This document shows, piece after piece, positions 15,838-20,098 of a DNA stretch of 48,093 bases; position 1 is the first letter of the stretch; every line of letters starts with the position of its first letter. The notes beneath the pieces are model-generated. The model was not told where the DNA came from. It was given only the letters and a program-made list of their open reading frames with translations, and searched no databases. The stretch covers positions 1 to 48,093 of the forward strand of contig CAIYPA010000051.1 of the NCBI GenBank assembly GCA_903927965.1, in the 5' to 3' direction. The stretch comes from an uncultured Bacteroidia bacterium. GTDB lineage: Bacteria > Bacteroidota > Bacteroidia > Bacteroidales > Prolixibacteraceae. The translations under genes and the position numbers were made by a program.

Positions 15838-17166
15838 ATGAAACAGATTGAACACGCACCAAATTGGATCAGTGAAAAGCTTTATAATGAGGTAAATCGG
15901 CTTCGTTTAAATGACGATTTTCAGGTACTGGTCAATGAGTTGAACGAAAAGTACTTGTATTGGGACAAAGTTAAATATCATACTTCGGCTTATGTAACTG
16001 ATCCTAAAGTGTTGTGGGCTGCCCTTAAATTAAGCCGGACAATCAATGCCAAAAAAATTCAGTTCCGGGAGTTCAAATTTATTTTCAATTTGACCGACTC
16101 AATACAAAAGGGGCTTCATGAGTTCGACCTGTATATCAGTGGTCATTTGGGTACGCAGAATTTAATTCCTGAAGGTGATAAAAAGCGGTACCTTGTTAGC
16201 TCAATCATGGAAGAGGCGATTGCATCAAGTCAAATAGAAGGAGCTGTTACAACGCGGAAACAAGCCAAAGAGATGCTCAGAAAAAATATCAAACCCAAAA
16301 ACAAGTCTGAGCAAATGATCCTGAATAATTATATCACAATTAGGCATATCGTGGCTATTAAGGATGAACCGATTACAACTGAAAAGTTATTGGAAATCCA
16401 TCAATTGATCTCCAATCAAACGCTGGCTGACAGGAAAGATGAGGGAGCTTTCAGGTCGGATAATGATGTAAAAGTAATTGATGTTGCCAACGGAAAAATT
16501 GTACATTCACCTCCTGATTATCAGGATATTCCGAAATTGATGGAGGAAGTTTTTCTCTTTTTTAACAAAGATAAAAATGGACATTTTATCCATCCTATTG
16601 TCAAGGGTTGTATTGTCCATTTTATGATAGGGTTTATCCATCCTTTCGCAGATGGCAATGGTCGGACTGCAAGGGCCTTGTTTTATTGGTATTTATTGAA
16701 AAACGGCTACTGGCTAACCGAATATTTGTCAATTTCACGGTTAATTGTAAAAAGCAAGGCTCAATATGCCAGGGCTTATCAATATACCGAATTGGACGAA
16801 AACGATTTGACCTATTTTATCATTTATAAGATAAAAACGATGCAGTTGGCTTTTGACGGTCTGATCGAATACATTCAATTAAAGACCAACGAAAAGCGGA
16901 AAACCTTAAATTTTCAAAAGATAAAGGGGATCAATTCCCGGCAAGCGCAGATCCTGAAATGGCTGTTTGAGGAACCGGAATTGATGTTTAGTGTCAAAGA
17001 ACTCGAAACCAGATTATCCGTCTCGAATCAGACAGCCAGGACTGATTTGACGGAATTGGTCAATCTGGGTTACCTTGAACAGATCGATTTAAACAACAAA
17101 ACGAAGGGATTTTGTCGTACAGATAATTTTGAGATCGTGTTGTCAAAGGAATTACCCAAAACATAA
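15838..17166 (+). CDS. fic: Fic family protein with C-terminal winged helix
   Basis: 442 residues. Fic enzymes usually transfer AMP from ATP to a target hydroxyl. Seen: N-terminal helical region with the inhibitory motif S-S-Q-I-E-G (residues 130-135; (S/T)xxxE(G/N) of class II Fic proteins, so the enzyme is self-inhibited), the complete catalytic loop HPFADGNGRTAR (268-279), and a C-terminal winged helix (about 365-435, NSRQAQILKWLF, SVKELETRLSVSNQTARTDLTELVNLGYL). The winged helix makes autorepression through the upstream inverted repeat plausible. No antitoxin gene (fiTA) is next to it. A bidirectional terminator overlaps the stop codon. Confidence 0.92.
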   Translation: MKQIEHAPNWISEKLYNEVNRLRLNDDFQVLVNELNEKYLYWDKVKYHTSAYVTDPKVLWAALKLSRTINAKKIQFREFKFIFNLTDSIQKGLHEFDLYISGHLGTQNLIPEGDKKRYLVSSIMEEAIASSQIEGAVTTRKQAKEMLRKNIKPKNKSEQMILNNYITIRHIVAIKDEPITTEKLLEIHQLISNQTLADRKDEGAFRSDNDVKVIDVANGKIVHSPPDYQDIPKLMEEVFLFFNKDKNGHFIHPIVKGCIVHFMIGFIHPFADGNGRTARALFYWYLLKNGYWLTEYLSISRLIVKSKAQYARAYQYTELDENDLTYFIIYKIKTMQLAFDGLIEYIQLKTNEKRKTLNFQKIKGINSRQAQILKWLFEEPELMFSVKELETRLSVSNQTARTDLTELVNLGYLEQIDLNNKTKGFCRTDNFEIVLSKELPKT

Positions 17167-17205
17167 ATTGCATCCAGCTTTAGCTGGATGCAATTTATGT
17201 TTTAT
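17161..17205. terminator. Strong bidirectional terminator between fic and aro genes
   Basis: A perfect 18-bp stem (17161-17178 with 17183-17200, loop TTTA; arms contain AATTGCATCCAGC) followed by TTTATT on the plus strand. On the minus strand it is followed by TTTTGGG. It separates two convergent genes and overlaps the fic stop codon. Confidence 0.9.
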
Positions 17206-18293
17206 TCAGCATCCATAATTTCAGTCTGTTGACGGACCGAATCTTCGTGGATCAGCTGGAAGATGATCTTTATAAAGGTCTCATCGAGATTGAGTTTGCG
17301 TGCGATGTTGGTGCGGTCCTCCATGATTTGCGTCCAGCGGTTGATTTGAAGGGCGGTAACCTTGTTCTGTTTTTTATAGTTGGCAATCTGCTTCACAATC
17401 TCCATCCTTGAAGCAAGAATTTCTATGATTTCATGGTCGATACCATCAATCCTTGAGCGGAGCGTATCGAGCATGTTTTCGAAAAGCGGGTCGTTGGAAC
17501 TTGTATATTTAATCACGAGCCTATCAAGTATTTTTGCCAGTTCGGCTGGTGTAACCTGTTGGTCTTTATCACTTAAGGCACACGATGGATCGATATGTGA
17601 TTCCAGCATCAAACCATCCAAACCCAAGTCGAATGCTTTTTGGGAAATTTCGAACAGGAACTCCCGTTTGCCGGAGATATGGCTTGGGTCGCAAATAATT
17701 GGAAGATTGGGCATCAGCTGCCTGAGTTCGATCACTGTTTTCCAGTTTGGATAGTTGCGGTACTTGGTTTCGCTGAATGGCGTAAATCCGCGGTGGATCG
17801 CTACGAGGTTCTTTAAACCTGCCTGGTTAAGCCTTTCGAGTGCCCCCATCCACAACTGCACATCAGGATTTACCGGATTCTTTACCATGATCACCTGGTC
17901 GGTCCCCTTCAGAACATCGGCAATTTCCTGAACAACAAAAGGTGAAGCGGTCGAACGTGCACCAATCCAAAGCACATCGACACCAGCCTTCAAACACTCT
18001 TCAACATGTTGTGCATTGGCCACTTCGGTTCCTACCATCAGTCCTGTTTCCTGTTTGACCTGTTTCAACCATTCCAGAGCAATGCTTCCCATCCCTTCAA
18101 ACGAACCCGGGCGGGTACGGGGTTTCCAGATTCCGCCACGATAGACGAAGACACGTTTGTCTTTTGCAAGTTCACGGGCGGTGGCCATTGTCTGCTCTTC
18201 CGATTCAAGACTGCAAGGACCACTGATCAGCAGTGGGTTGTCTATTGTTGGTAACCAATGATTGATTGGATTGATGTCTAATTTTGTAACCAT
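17202..18293 (-). CDS. Bifunctional DAHP synthase / chorismate mutase
   Basis: 363 residues: an N-terminal type I-beta DAHP synthase (about 1-260; LLISGPCSLES, VYRGGIWKPRTRPGSFEG, LWIGARST, VMVKNP-like IMVKNPVNPD, AIHRGF, ICDPSHISG, LMLESHIDP) and a C-terminal AroQ-type chorismate mutase (about 275-360; LRSRIDGIDHEIIEILASRMEIV). It condenses PEP and erythrose 4-phosphate, the first step of the shikimate pathway, and converts chorismate to prephenate; the mutase domain is known in such fusions to confer feedback control. It starts five bases after tyrA and shares its attenuated transcript, so entry into the pathway and the tyrosine branch are regulated together. Confidence 0.95.
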   Translation of the reverse strand: MVTKLDINPINHWLPTIDNPLLISGPCSLESEEQTMATARELAKDKRVFVYRGGIWKPRTRPGSFEGMGSIALEWLKQVKQETGLMVGTEVANAQHVEECLKAGVDVLWIGARSTASPFVVQEIADVLKGTDQVIMVKNPVNPDVQLWMGALERLNQAGLKNLVAIHRGFTPFSETKYRNYPNWKTVIELRQLMPNLPIICDPSHISGKREFLFEISQKAFDLGLDGLMLESHIDPSCALSDKDQQVTPAELAKILDRLVIKYTSSNDPLFENMLDTLRSRIDGIDHEIIEILASRMEIVKQIANYKKQNKVTALQINRWTQIMEDRTNIARKLNLDETFIKIIFQLIHEDSVRQQTEIMDAE

Positions 18294-18298
18294 GATTT

Positions 18299-19195
18299 TT
18301 ATTTTGTGTAAAATTTAATAATTGTTTCTTCATTCTTCGTAAGCGATGGGTTTTCACCTTCAAGGACACCACGGATTTTATTTGCACTTACAATTAATTC
18401 CGATAATTGTTTAGGATCGTTGTTTTTAAGGCTCTCCTTAAATGCTTCGAGGTGGTGGATATATACTTCGAGTGCTTCAGAAATGTAATCGCGGTTTTGC
18501 CAGAAAATAGGGGCCCACATTTCGGGGGAGCTTTTTGCAAGACGAACAGTCGATTGAAAACCGCCGGAAGCCAGGTCGAAAATAATGTTGCGGTCCTCAA
18601 TGGCAAGAACAGCATTGGCCAGGGCAAAAGAGGTGGCATGTGGAAGATGTGAAATGAATGCGGTGGTGTGGTCCTGCTCGTCGCTGGTCATATAGGCAAT
18701 CGGCATTCCAAGAGACTGGTACATCTTTTCGACAAGAGCCAGATGTTGCGGCCTGCACTTGTCCTGATCGCAGACGATACATATTTTCCGTTCAAACAGG
18801 TGTTCGATTGCGGCATTCGGCCCACTGTTTTCAGTTCCGGCCATCGGGTGCGAAGCGATATAATTTCCGCGTTGAGGGTGGTTTTTTACAGTTTCGGCAA
18901 TTTCCCGTTTTGTAGATCCAACATCAGTGACGGTTGTTGAGGGCGATATCTGATCCAGGATTGAAGGAAGTACCTTGACGATTCGATCGACAGGAATGGC
19001 CAGAATGATGATATCAGCTTCTTTTATAGCTGTTTCCAGATTTTCGATCCGATCGGCGATGCCCAGTTCAAGGGCAACCCTTGCGTTATCAGGGTCATTG
19101 TCAACGCCGATGATCTCTGTGGCAAATCTGGTCCTCCGTAAATCTTTGGCCATCGATCCACCGATGAGCCCAAGTCCGATTACTGCTAATTTCAT
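18299..19195 (-). CDS. tyrA: Prephenate dehydrogenase
   Basis: 298 residues. The N-terminal Rossmann fold has GLGLIGGS (7-14) and an acidic residue after the second strand (GVDND), indicating NAD. Catalytic-region motifs: DVGSTK, SHPMAGTENSGP and a helical C-terminal dimer domain with HLPHATSFALA and DLASGGF. It oxidatively decarboxylates prephenate to 4-hydroxyphenylpyruvate for tyrosine synthesis. First structural gene after the aromatic leader peptide and attenuator; its ATG is 22 bases beyond the terminator T-run. No ACT domain is fused. Confidence 0.95.
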   Translation of the reverse strand: MKLAVIGLGLIGGSMAKDLRRTRFATEIIGVDNDPDNARVALELGIADRIENLETAIKEADIIILAIPVDRIVKVLPSILDQISPSTTVTDVGSTKREIAETVKNHPQRGNYIASHPMAGTENSGPNAAIEHLFERKICIVCDQDKCRPQHLALVEKMYQSLGMPIAYMTSDEQDHTTAFISHLPHATSFALANAVLAIEDRNIIFDLASGGFQSTVRLAKSSPEMWAPIFWQNRDYISEALEVYIHHLEAFKESLKNNDPKQLSELIVSANKIRGVLEGENPSLTKNEETIIKFYTK

Positions 19196-19217
19196 AATTT
19201 TGTCATTTGAAAACCAT

Positions 19218-19250
19218 AAAAAAAGGTCCCCGCTTTGGAGACCTTTTTTT
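19218..19250 (-). terminator. Attenuator terminator of the tyrA operon
   Basis: On the minus strand AGGTCTCC pairs with GGGGACCT (one G-U), extended by a run of A before and seven T after (plus-strand A at 19218-19224). It lies between the leader peptide and tyrA. Its 5' arm (GTCTCC, 19237-19242) can instead pair with GGAGAC at 19289-19294 in the end of the leader gene, giving an antiterminator. Confidence 0.9.
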
Positions 19251-19278
19251 GATTTAATATTGTTGTTTTTGCAATACT

Positions 19279-19344
19279 CTACCGTTTAGTCTCCGAACGA
19301 AGGCTAAGATAACTAAACCAAAAATAGAAAGCATTGCTGTTCAT
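19279..19344 (-). CDS. Aromatic leader peptide of the tyrA-DAHPS/CM operon
   Basis: A 21-codon gene too short for routine gene calling. It encodes a peptide with the run FYFWFSY at residues 6-12, that is three Phe, two Tyr and one Trp in seven codons. It begins ATG at 19344 and stops TAG at 19279-19281. The Trp-Phe-Ser codons (GTTTAGT, 19312-19318) are complementary to ACTAAAC (19284-19290) further on in the gene, which in turn overlaps the GGAGAC antiterminator strand. The elements match the 1:2, 2:3, 3:4 logic of trpL/pheL attenuators: stalling at aromatic codons would free strand 2 to pair with strand 3 and let transcription continue into tyrA. Confidence 0.88.
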   Translation of the reverse strand: MNSNAFYFWFSYLSLRSETKR

Positions 19345-19370
19345 TGCATCAAACTGTTATAATTCAGCGA

Positions 19371-19378
19371 CAAAAATA
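19371..19378 (-). promoter_or_regulatory. -7 box for the attenuated aro operon
   Basis: TATTTTTG on the minus strand, 27 bases before the leader-peptide ATG. Fits TAnnTTTG; no clear -33 TTG at 19-base spacing. Confidence 0.5.
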
Positions 19379-19453
19379 AATAAAATTTTCAGTTTTATGG
19401 GATAAATCATAAAAGTTGCGAAAATTAAATTTTGTAACCTATAATATTATTGA

Positions 19454-19605
19454 CCGGGACTGAAGTCCTGGGGTACGGCATGAAACCCCGGGACCAAAGC
19501 CCTGGGTTACAAAATGAGTCGTTCCTACGGAACTGCGAAGTGGCGACACTCCATAGAGTCGTAGGCTCGGCCCATGTTGTAAGGACGGATTTTAATCCGT
19601 CTCCG
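19454..19605. repeat. REP-like palindromes on the downstream side of the transposase
   Basis: Between tyrA and the transposase lie short palindromes: GGGACTGAAGTCC and GGGACCAAAGCCC types (19457-19503), GTTCCTACGGAAC (19521-19533), GAGTCGTAGGCTC (19556-19568) and GACGGATTTTAATCCGTC (19584-19601). The same set recurs at 20190-20470 on the other side of the gene. Confidence 0.75.
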
Positions 19606-19636: not shown

Positions 19637-20098
19637 TCATATCAGCTCCTCAAAAATATACCGCTCATCATAATCCACCTCAAACCGATCCAGGAACTCC
19701 TTGTACTCTTCCAAAAATTTTTGGTGTTTGTGGTGCTCCTCCTGGTTGGCAATGTAATGATAGACATTGTCGATCTGGGAATGACTGTACGAAAACACCC
19801 CGTATCCTACCTGCCACTCAAACCGTACCTTTGTAAGGCGGTGATCGTTAATGTATTTTGAGGATTTGGCTTTTATGGTTTGCATTAATTCAGAGATGGA
19901 TACTGTAGGTTTTAATCCGAAAAAGCAATGAACATGGTCCTCAATGCCATTAACGATGATTGTTTTGCAGCCGGTTTCATTGATCAGGGTTCCCAAAACA
20001 CCCATAAGGAGAGGTTTCCACTTTTTATCAATAACGGCTTCGCGGTATTTTACTGCGAATACGGATTGAATGTAAACTTGATGATAGGTATTTGCCAT
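19637..20098 (-). CDS. IS200/IS605-type (RAYT-like) Y1 transposase
   Basis: 153 residues. A single-domain HUH nuclease: the metal-binding HVH is in GIEDHVHCFFGL (His55, His57) and the nucleophile is probably Tyr115 in HYIANQEEHHK. Such enzymes cut and rejoin single-stranded DNA at hairpins. There is no companion TnpB/IscB. The gene is flanked on both sides by families of short palindromes rather than a single pair of IS ends, which is the arrangement of REP-associated tyrosine transposases. Intact; activity cannot be judged. Confidence 0.88.
   Translation of the reverse strand: MANTYHQVYIQSVFAVKYREAVIDKKWKPLLMGVLGTLINETGCKTIIVNGIEDHVHCFFGLKPTVSISELMQTIKAKSSKYINDHRLTKVRFEWQVGYGVFSYSHSQIDNVYHYIANQEEHHKHQKFLEEYKEFLDRFEVDYDERYIFEELI

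Follow-up and report, generated by a model that had tools for sequence, protein, structure and literature searches.

The window, a stretch of 48,093 nucleotides, is a single contig from an assembly of 7.57 Mb and carries two adjacent aromatic biosynthesis genes on its minus strand. The first, tyrA (18299..19195), encodes prephenate dehydrogenase (Pfam PDH_N, 1.9e-38; PDH_C, 2e-21). The second (17202..18293), which starts 5 nt past tyrA, encodes a fusion of DAHP synthase I and chorismate mutase II (DAHP_synth_1, 2.4e-38; CM_2, 1.8e-19), here called DAHPS-CM; these are the operon partners that an initial annotation of the sequence had named. A gene for a Fic-domain protein with a C-terminal HTH (15838-17166, plus strand) is convergent with the operon. 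On the upstream side the regulatory region adjoins an IS200-like Y1 transposase gene (19637-20098, minus strand; Pfam), after which GC-rich DNA at 19429-19515 lies inside an 11-nt inverted repeat (ATTTTGTAACC/GGTTACAAAAT) and is perhaps a REP-type element.

Between these neighbors and tyrA, on the minus strand, lie the parts of a putative transcription attenuator. A predicted promoter -7 box, TATTTTTG (19371..19378), matches the Bacteroidota consensus TAnnTTTG and is followed by a leader ORF of 21 codons (19279..19344) that reads MNSNAFYFWFSYLSLRSETKR and ends in TAG, with aromatic residues at codons 6-10 and 12. Within the ORF, strand 0 (GCAAUGC, 19331..19337) covers Ser-Asn-Ala codons and strand 1 (GUUUAGU, 19312..19318) the end of the Trp codon with the Phe and Ser codons. 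Strand 2, GGAGACUAAAC (19284..19294), is bipartite: GGAGAC (19294-19289), extended by a U, pairs with strand 3, and ACUAAAC (19290-19284) pairs with strand 1. Directly past the leader stop, strand 2b (GUAUUGC, 19271..19277) can pair with strand 0, in a helix that encloses 1:2, or with strand 3a (CAAUAUU, 19256..19262), in an inner antiterminator helix that was recognized from the predicted fold and from pairing counts. Strand 3 (GGUCUCC, 19237..19243) is common to the antiterminator (2:3) and the terminator (3:4); the latter, found by pattern scan at 19218..19250, consists of the hairpin of strand 3 with strand 4 (GGGGACC, 19231-19225), flanking A-U pairs and a U7 tract (19224-19218) that ends 22 nt before tyrA. 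An intrinsic terminator therefore lies between the leader and the first regulated gene. The predicted free energy is -10.5 kcal/mol for the 1:2 hairpin and -12.6 kcal/mol for the transcript folded up to strand 3, a fold that includes 2b:3a. Taken on its own the terminator is unremarkable, since the scan found two terminator-like sites in 1.5 kb where shuffled sequences led us to expect 1.3.

The initial annotation had described the leader with its F-Y-F-W-F-S-Y stretch, four strands (GUUUAGU, GGAGAC followed by UAAAC, GUCUCC within what we call strand 3, and GGGGACC) and the U7 tract, and all of these are where it placed them. It treated the anatomy as one of four strands, missing the two-part construction of strand 2 and the additional conserved helix 0:2b.

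To compare leaders among relatives, upstream regions were collected from the family Prolixibacteraceae, which NCBI places in Marinilabiliales, class Bacteroidia; order-wide searches used the GTDB order, which we take to be Bacteroidales. The family search gave matches in 46 of 61 genomes, and loci were taken from the best 30 of the 46; the best matches include Prolixibacteraceae, Prolixibacter, Mariniphaga, Draconibacterium and uncultured Bacteroidia and Bacteroidales. Eighty loci were gathered. A locus was dropped if its last 200 upstream bases were the same as another's (17 loci), if it had no gene start (L068) or if its TyrA match was distant or partial and missed the E cut of 1e-60 (eight loci). 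This left 54 distinct upstream regions; 13 of these (L001-L013) belong to the genus of the window and 41 lie outside it. Leader ORFs were chosen by a density rule.

All 54 regions carry an F/Y-rich leader ORF, a terminator hairpin of at least seven pairs ahead of a U-tract, and tyrA followed by a DAHPS-CM gene. A stricter detector that asks for leader and terminator together recognized 52 of the 54, and none of the 54 reverse complements. The 2:3 duplex has a predicted energy of -6.2 kcal/mol or better in every row, in another register in L053 and L063. In 51 of the 54 regions the 70 nt that precede the leader ATG contain TAnnTTTG or TAnnnTTTG, compared with a mean of 5.5 and a maximum of 13 in 100 base shuffles; TAnnTTTG is the Bacteroidota promoter consensus named in a passage of PMC9723704. 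The leader of the window has six aromatic residues, and those of many relatives in other genera have nine or ten. Strand 1 coincides with the aromatic codons in the window, as had been claimed; in other genera it is found elsewhere, though still in or beside aromatic codons. A search of plasmid records with the leader of the window gave no match. The notion that a plain terminator of the upstream DNA stands beside a chance ORF and regulates nothing could appeal to the chance expectation for a lone terminator and to the transposase just upstream, and is exceedingly improbable given that leader, antiterminator and terminator recur together in the 54 relatives and in none of the reverse complements.

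Pairing was examined in an alignment of the 54 leaders made with MAFFT, in which every ungapped 7-bp helix placement with enough letters (4571 in all) was scored. The 2:3 antiterminator ranked first, with 96.8% of cells paired, and the 3:4 terminator second, with 94%. Third (columns 28-34 with 94-100, 86.6% of cells paired) was 0:2b, which joins the Asn/Ser codons that precede the aromatic run to the UAUUG directly past the stop. Neither the percentage paired nor the covariation score of 2:3 was reached by any of 500 shuffles, and sliding the helix by one column lowered pairing to 67% or less; five of its pairs are changed on both sides, a number reached by 16 of 500 shuffles. The covariation score of 0:2b was likewise reached by none of 500 shuffles. 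Its doubly changed pairs number four, a figure that 78 of 500 shuffles reach; columns 29-99 show changes from A-U to G-C, and columns 33-95 from U-A to C-G.

MAFFT misaligned strands 4 and 3a between the genus of the window and the remaining leaders. The counts for 1:2, 3:4 and the inner helix therefore use the 41 leaders outside the genus, and those for 2:3 and 0:2b use the full set of 54. In the 41-leader alignment 88.8% of cells are paired in 0:2b, 88.2% in 1:2 and 95.1% in 3:4, and 14 of the 22 pairs of these three helices are changed on both sides, which none of 500 shuffles reached. The covariation scores of 2:3 and 3:4 exceed those of all 500 shuffles and of all slid controls. For the inner helix 2b:3a, 80.4% of cells are paired in the 41 leaders and several pairs are often broken. 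Together with 2:3 it gives a covariation score above all shuffles, with eight doubly changed pairs, a number that 54 of 500 shuffles reach. The isolated 2b:3a duplex beats shuffles in only eight of 54 rows, in a segment that cut the helix short, and the inner helix is therefore the least certain part of the structure. RNAalifold, applied to the whole MAFFT alignment, returned only mutually compatible helices: it chose the apex of 1:2 and 3:4 (15 pairs), and neither 2:3 nor 0:2b. The initial annotation proposed that an alignment of relatives would refute the attenuator if the aromatic codons or alternative pairings were not conserved. Both are conserved among the 54, and the mutually exclusive 1:2, 2:3 and 3:4 that it described show compensatory changes, 2:3 across the 54 leaders and 1:2 and 3:4 across the 41. 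Comparison of the sequences establishes the anatomy of the element, its conservation and its covariation.

Switching between the two states was modelled by folding transcripts that end at strand 3, with pairing barred under a fixed ribosome footprint, and by reading out the highest 2:3 pair probability. The median over the 54 leaders was 0.004 with no ribosome, rose to 0.997 when a ribosome was stalled near the end of the aromatic codons and was 0.0 when it stood at the stop; for the window the three values were 0.008, 1.0 and 0.0. With a stalled ribosome 46 of the 54 leaders exceeded a probability of 0.5 and eight did not; without one, eight exceeded it, and with the ribosome at the stop none did. 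When the ribosome was moved codon by codon, the median probability climbed along the ORF, stood at 0.92-1.0 in columns 37-61 and was 0 from column 64. Aromatic codons occupy columns 37-58 (72-100% of rows) and make up at most 9% thereafter. The sole notable share before the run is at column 25, where 30% of codons are aromatic and a stall would be less effective (median probability 0.49). The modelled folding switches as attenuation predicts: control codons are so placed that a stall would free strand 2, in 46 of 54 leaders by this computation, and termination of translation would cover it. The earlier proposal that a ribosome stalled at strand 1 favors antitermination is in line with the model for the window. 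With the main footprint the on-zone of the window spans codons 3-14, and stalls at the non-aromatic codons 3-5, 11, 13 and 14 would switch it too. Position thus appears to be permissive in the window, and specificity would come from the codons present.

We conclude, with a probability of roughly 0.93, that the element is a transcription attenuator of the ribosome-mediated (leader-peptide) kind and makes expression of tyrA and DAHPS-CM depend on how much charged tRNA-Phe and tRNA-Tyr is available, with Trp as a possible third input in the genus. With aromatic amino acids plentiful, the ribosome would reach the stop and cover strands 2 and 2b, so that the 3:4 terminator forms and transcription ends. 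With aromatic amino acids scarce, it would stall on the F-Y-F-W-F-S-Y run and cover strands 0 and 1; strands 2 and 2b would then pair with 3 and 3a, the terminator would be blocked and the operon transcribed. If the leader were not translated, 0:2b and 1:2 would form and the terminator would win. The stalling, the read-through and the response to amino acids are inferred.

Which amino acids would be sensed is suggested by the codons. Leaders rich in codons for the end products of the operon precede the genes, as identified by Pfam, in 54 of 54 cases. In the aromatic runs 396 of 420 codons are aromatic, and all 358 TTN or TAN codons end in T or C; the latter result is the more telling, because the run was picked for its aromatic content. 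The initial annotation held that one leader senses all three aromatic amino acids. Its Phe and Tyr part agrees with the presence of both codons in 54 of 54 leaders; its Trp part does not hold across the family, where Trp codons are present in 38 leaders and absent from 16. We give slightly better than even odds to a narrower version of the same mechanism, in which only Phe and Tyr are sensed and the Trp codon is incidental. It accords with the Trp counts and with the two Trp leaders that trpE of the same genome has of its own. The tyrA leaders of the family are balanced (F 198, Y 190, W 43), whereas the three pheA leaders found in Prolixibacteraceae carry Phe almost exclusively (F 15, Y 2, W 2), so the residues seem matched to the operon. 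Against this version, the Trp codon is kept in 13 of the 13 leaders of the genus of the window, a stall at its position gives a modelled 2:3 probability of 1.0, and DAHP synthase also feeds Trp. We read the leader of the window, from its codons, as a Phe/Tyr sensor for which Trp is possible.

It is very unlikely that the element senses free aromatic amino acids, by nascent-peptide arrest of the TnaC type or as a metabolite-binding element, instead of a shortage of charged tRNA. A conserved leader ORF followed by a terminator would be compatible with either device too. Arrest peptides require specific residues, whereas the 54 leaders keep F, Y and W present and in place but in no fixed order. 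At the Rfam gathering threshold the window has no match, T-box and riboswitch models included, and in 20 loci tested the sole match is a tRNA, with no riboswitch, T-box or Phe_leader. More improbable still is that the U-rich codons are a by-product of the pairing of strand 1 with the purine-rich strand 2 and no sensor at all. The aromatic codons of several relatives do pair with the end of the ORF, but selection for pairing does not account for third bases that are never A or G (either would turn the codon into Leu or a stop), nor for other reading frames of the run that yield mixtures of Ile, Phe and Leu, nor for leaders of other operons that carry His, Trp or Ile/Leu/Val codons.

Leaders of this kind are not confined to tyrA. 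The order was searched, at a cut of E 0.01, with R1, a covariance model that describes the terminator state; 49 of 295 genomes had matches, four of them in Prolixibacteraceae; about three would be expected by chance, the E-values being rough. From outside the family 26 matched loci were fetched (L089-L114). An F/Y-rich leader is present at 25 of them, identified by script at 22 and by eye at three (L093, L094, L096). By Pfam the next gene is pheA (PDT) at 20 loci, a class I/II aminotransferase at three and ilvD at one (L090, the exception among the 26, which has at the beginning of its reverse strand two Ile-rich leaders in series, each with a terminator); L098 and L112 reach a contig edge. 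A class-wide search with R1 had matches in 44 of 295 genomes, and 12 of 29 inspected loci had an aromatic leader with terminator, compared with two of 29 on the reverse complement. The script found no such leader at the other 17, many of which are plain terminators by eye, so weak R1 matches alone are not evidence.

An independent search for PDT had matches in 43 of 99 genomes of the order. Aromatic leader and terminator occur together at 24 of the best 30 loci, compared with one of the 30 reverse complements; two of the 30 belong to Prolixibacteraceae and both lack the pair, leaving 24 of 28 outside the family. PDT was found in 44 of 46 Prolixibacteraceae genomes, and an aromatic leader with terminator precedes pheA at three of the 30 best loci there. 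The contrast between 24 of 28 and three of 30 has a Fisher p of 5e-9, species not being independent. The simplest reading of these distributions is that in Prolixibacteraceae the tyrA-DAHPS operon keeps an attenuator and pheA, now elsewhere, has mostly lost its own. In pheA leaders elsewhere in the order Phe also predominates (F 132, Y 85; Mann-Whitney p 0.011, again with species that are not independent); the ratio is approximate because one peptide was counted per two-leader locus. In the genome of the window (L115), as also in L185, a terminator-like hairpin and U-tract precede pheA with no aromatic leader, the hairpin in L115 lying a few bases past a TATATTTG box; it may be left over from an attenuator since lost.

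Two leaders with separate terminators occur at five of the best 30 pheA loci of the order (L152, L160, L164, L167, L177), and tandem forms were also found at L095, L104, L110, L111 and L113, L111 and L177 being one place. L170 was not counted, because its two ORFs share one terminator. These tandem aromatic attenuators sit before pheA or an aminotransferase gene in other families of the order; the attenuator of the window is single, with one leader ORF and one terminator.

Other amino acid operons of the same genome have leaders of their own, read by eye. At trpE (PF04715; L116, contig C396) there are tandem Trp leaders, MKTFKSIWLWWGNTFLC and MKQLSQNTWAWRWQDYFLQT, each with a terminator; at hisG (PF01634; L120, contig C458) a His-rich leader with GHHHH, MINTIIHKGHHHHLP, with a terminator; and at ilvD (Pfam; L082/L119, contig C320) an Ile/Leu/Val-rich leader, MKNIFTNSLLLVVIILVLAG, with a terminator. 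The remaining weak model matches in this genome (L083, L084, L085) have no aromatic leader and were set aside. Taken as one joint claim, the following is in our judgment fairly probable. Leader-peptide attenuation would be a general and old control of amino acid operons in Bacteroidia, a class largely without Shine-Dalgarno initiation; the aromatic attenuator would be a bipartite double switch (0:2b and 1:2 against 2:3 and 2b:3a), and pheA, ilvD and trpE would have related leaders in tandem; and in Prolixibacteraceae a tyrA-DAHPS operon separate from pheA would have taken over the control, with the leader codons retuned to F/Y before tyrA and nearly all F before pheA.

Among Rfam models searched at E 5, the best match in the window is RF01859, Phe_leader, and the rest were judged to be chance. 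The whole model (1-125) aligns, with 31.5 bits and E 0.0013. This is below the gathering threshold of 55, so the element appears to work like RF01859 but cannot be filed there. The 20 loci tested likewise contain no leader that scores as high as an Rfam threshold, and such elements are therefore probably unannotated. The E. coli pheA attenuator likewise has a Phe-rich leader peptide, alternative pairings and an intrinsic terminator ahead of an aromatic operon; the element described here differs in that its leader mixes F and Y, strand 2 is bipartite, strands 0 and 3a are present, the promoter is of the Bacteroidota type and the genes are tyrA and DAHPS-CM. The enterobacterial trp, his, ilv and thr attenuators are the textbook cases of classical ribosome-mediated attenuation. 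They share the proposed mechanism and anatomy, with leader ORFs and terminators found here at trpE, hisG and ilvD, and differ in phylum, in the genes governed and in that trpE here has Trp leaders in tandem.

Attenuation in Bacteroidota, of which the initial annotation knew little, is indeed little studied, and Lopatovskaya 2010 reportedly covers Bacteroidetes. It is not wholly undescribed: a transcriptome study of Flavobacterium psychrophilum mentions "strong clues" of leader-peptide attenuation before amino acid operons (PMC9723704), a proposal that matches ours in phylum, kind of operon and mechanism, although the passages in question name no genes and show neither leader sequences nor pairings. 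A B. thetaiotaomicron transcriptome report (PMC7366714) notes short ORFs, "reminiscent of leader peptides", within long 5' UTRs. The uORFC-13-1 motif before aroF of Acholeplasma, as a section of PMC8632094 describes it, also has a uORF with Phe codon(s) and a terminator ahead of a DAHP synthase gene; it belongs to another phylum, shows no sign of common descent, and no mixed Phe/Tyr run is reported in that section. Salmonella mgtCBR, in the passages of PMC3641672 that treat its tandem attenuators, has two leader ORFs in series, as do the pheA, ilvD and trpE loci, but senses two different signals, ATP and proline; our tandem loci have the same kind of codon in both leaders, and the window has a single one. 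A search of the open literature, with most subscription papers outside its scope, gave nothing else describing a leader at tyrA-DAHPS.

The mechanism is classical and was already suggested in Flavobacterium; of some interest are helix 0:2b, the loci with tandem attenuators and the apparent move of control from pheA to tyrA-DAHPS, along with the conservation of a leader-peptide attenuator among relatives in a group where such control has received little study. For classical attenuation, translation must begin promptly at the leader and stay closely coupled to transcription. A passage of PMC7366714 describes the mRNAs of Bacteroidota as being without Shine-Dalgarno sequences, so the set of putative aromatic, Trp, His and Ile/Leu/Val attenuators in one genome opens coupling in the phylum to direct test. 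The attenuator would also offer an amino-acid-responsive switch for the genetics of Bacteroidota. In other Bacteroidia, two loci (L123, L131) carry an Ile/Thr-rich leader with a terminator, MIFNTSIITTIIITTG in L123, which resembles E. coli thrL.
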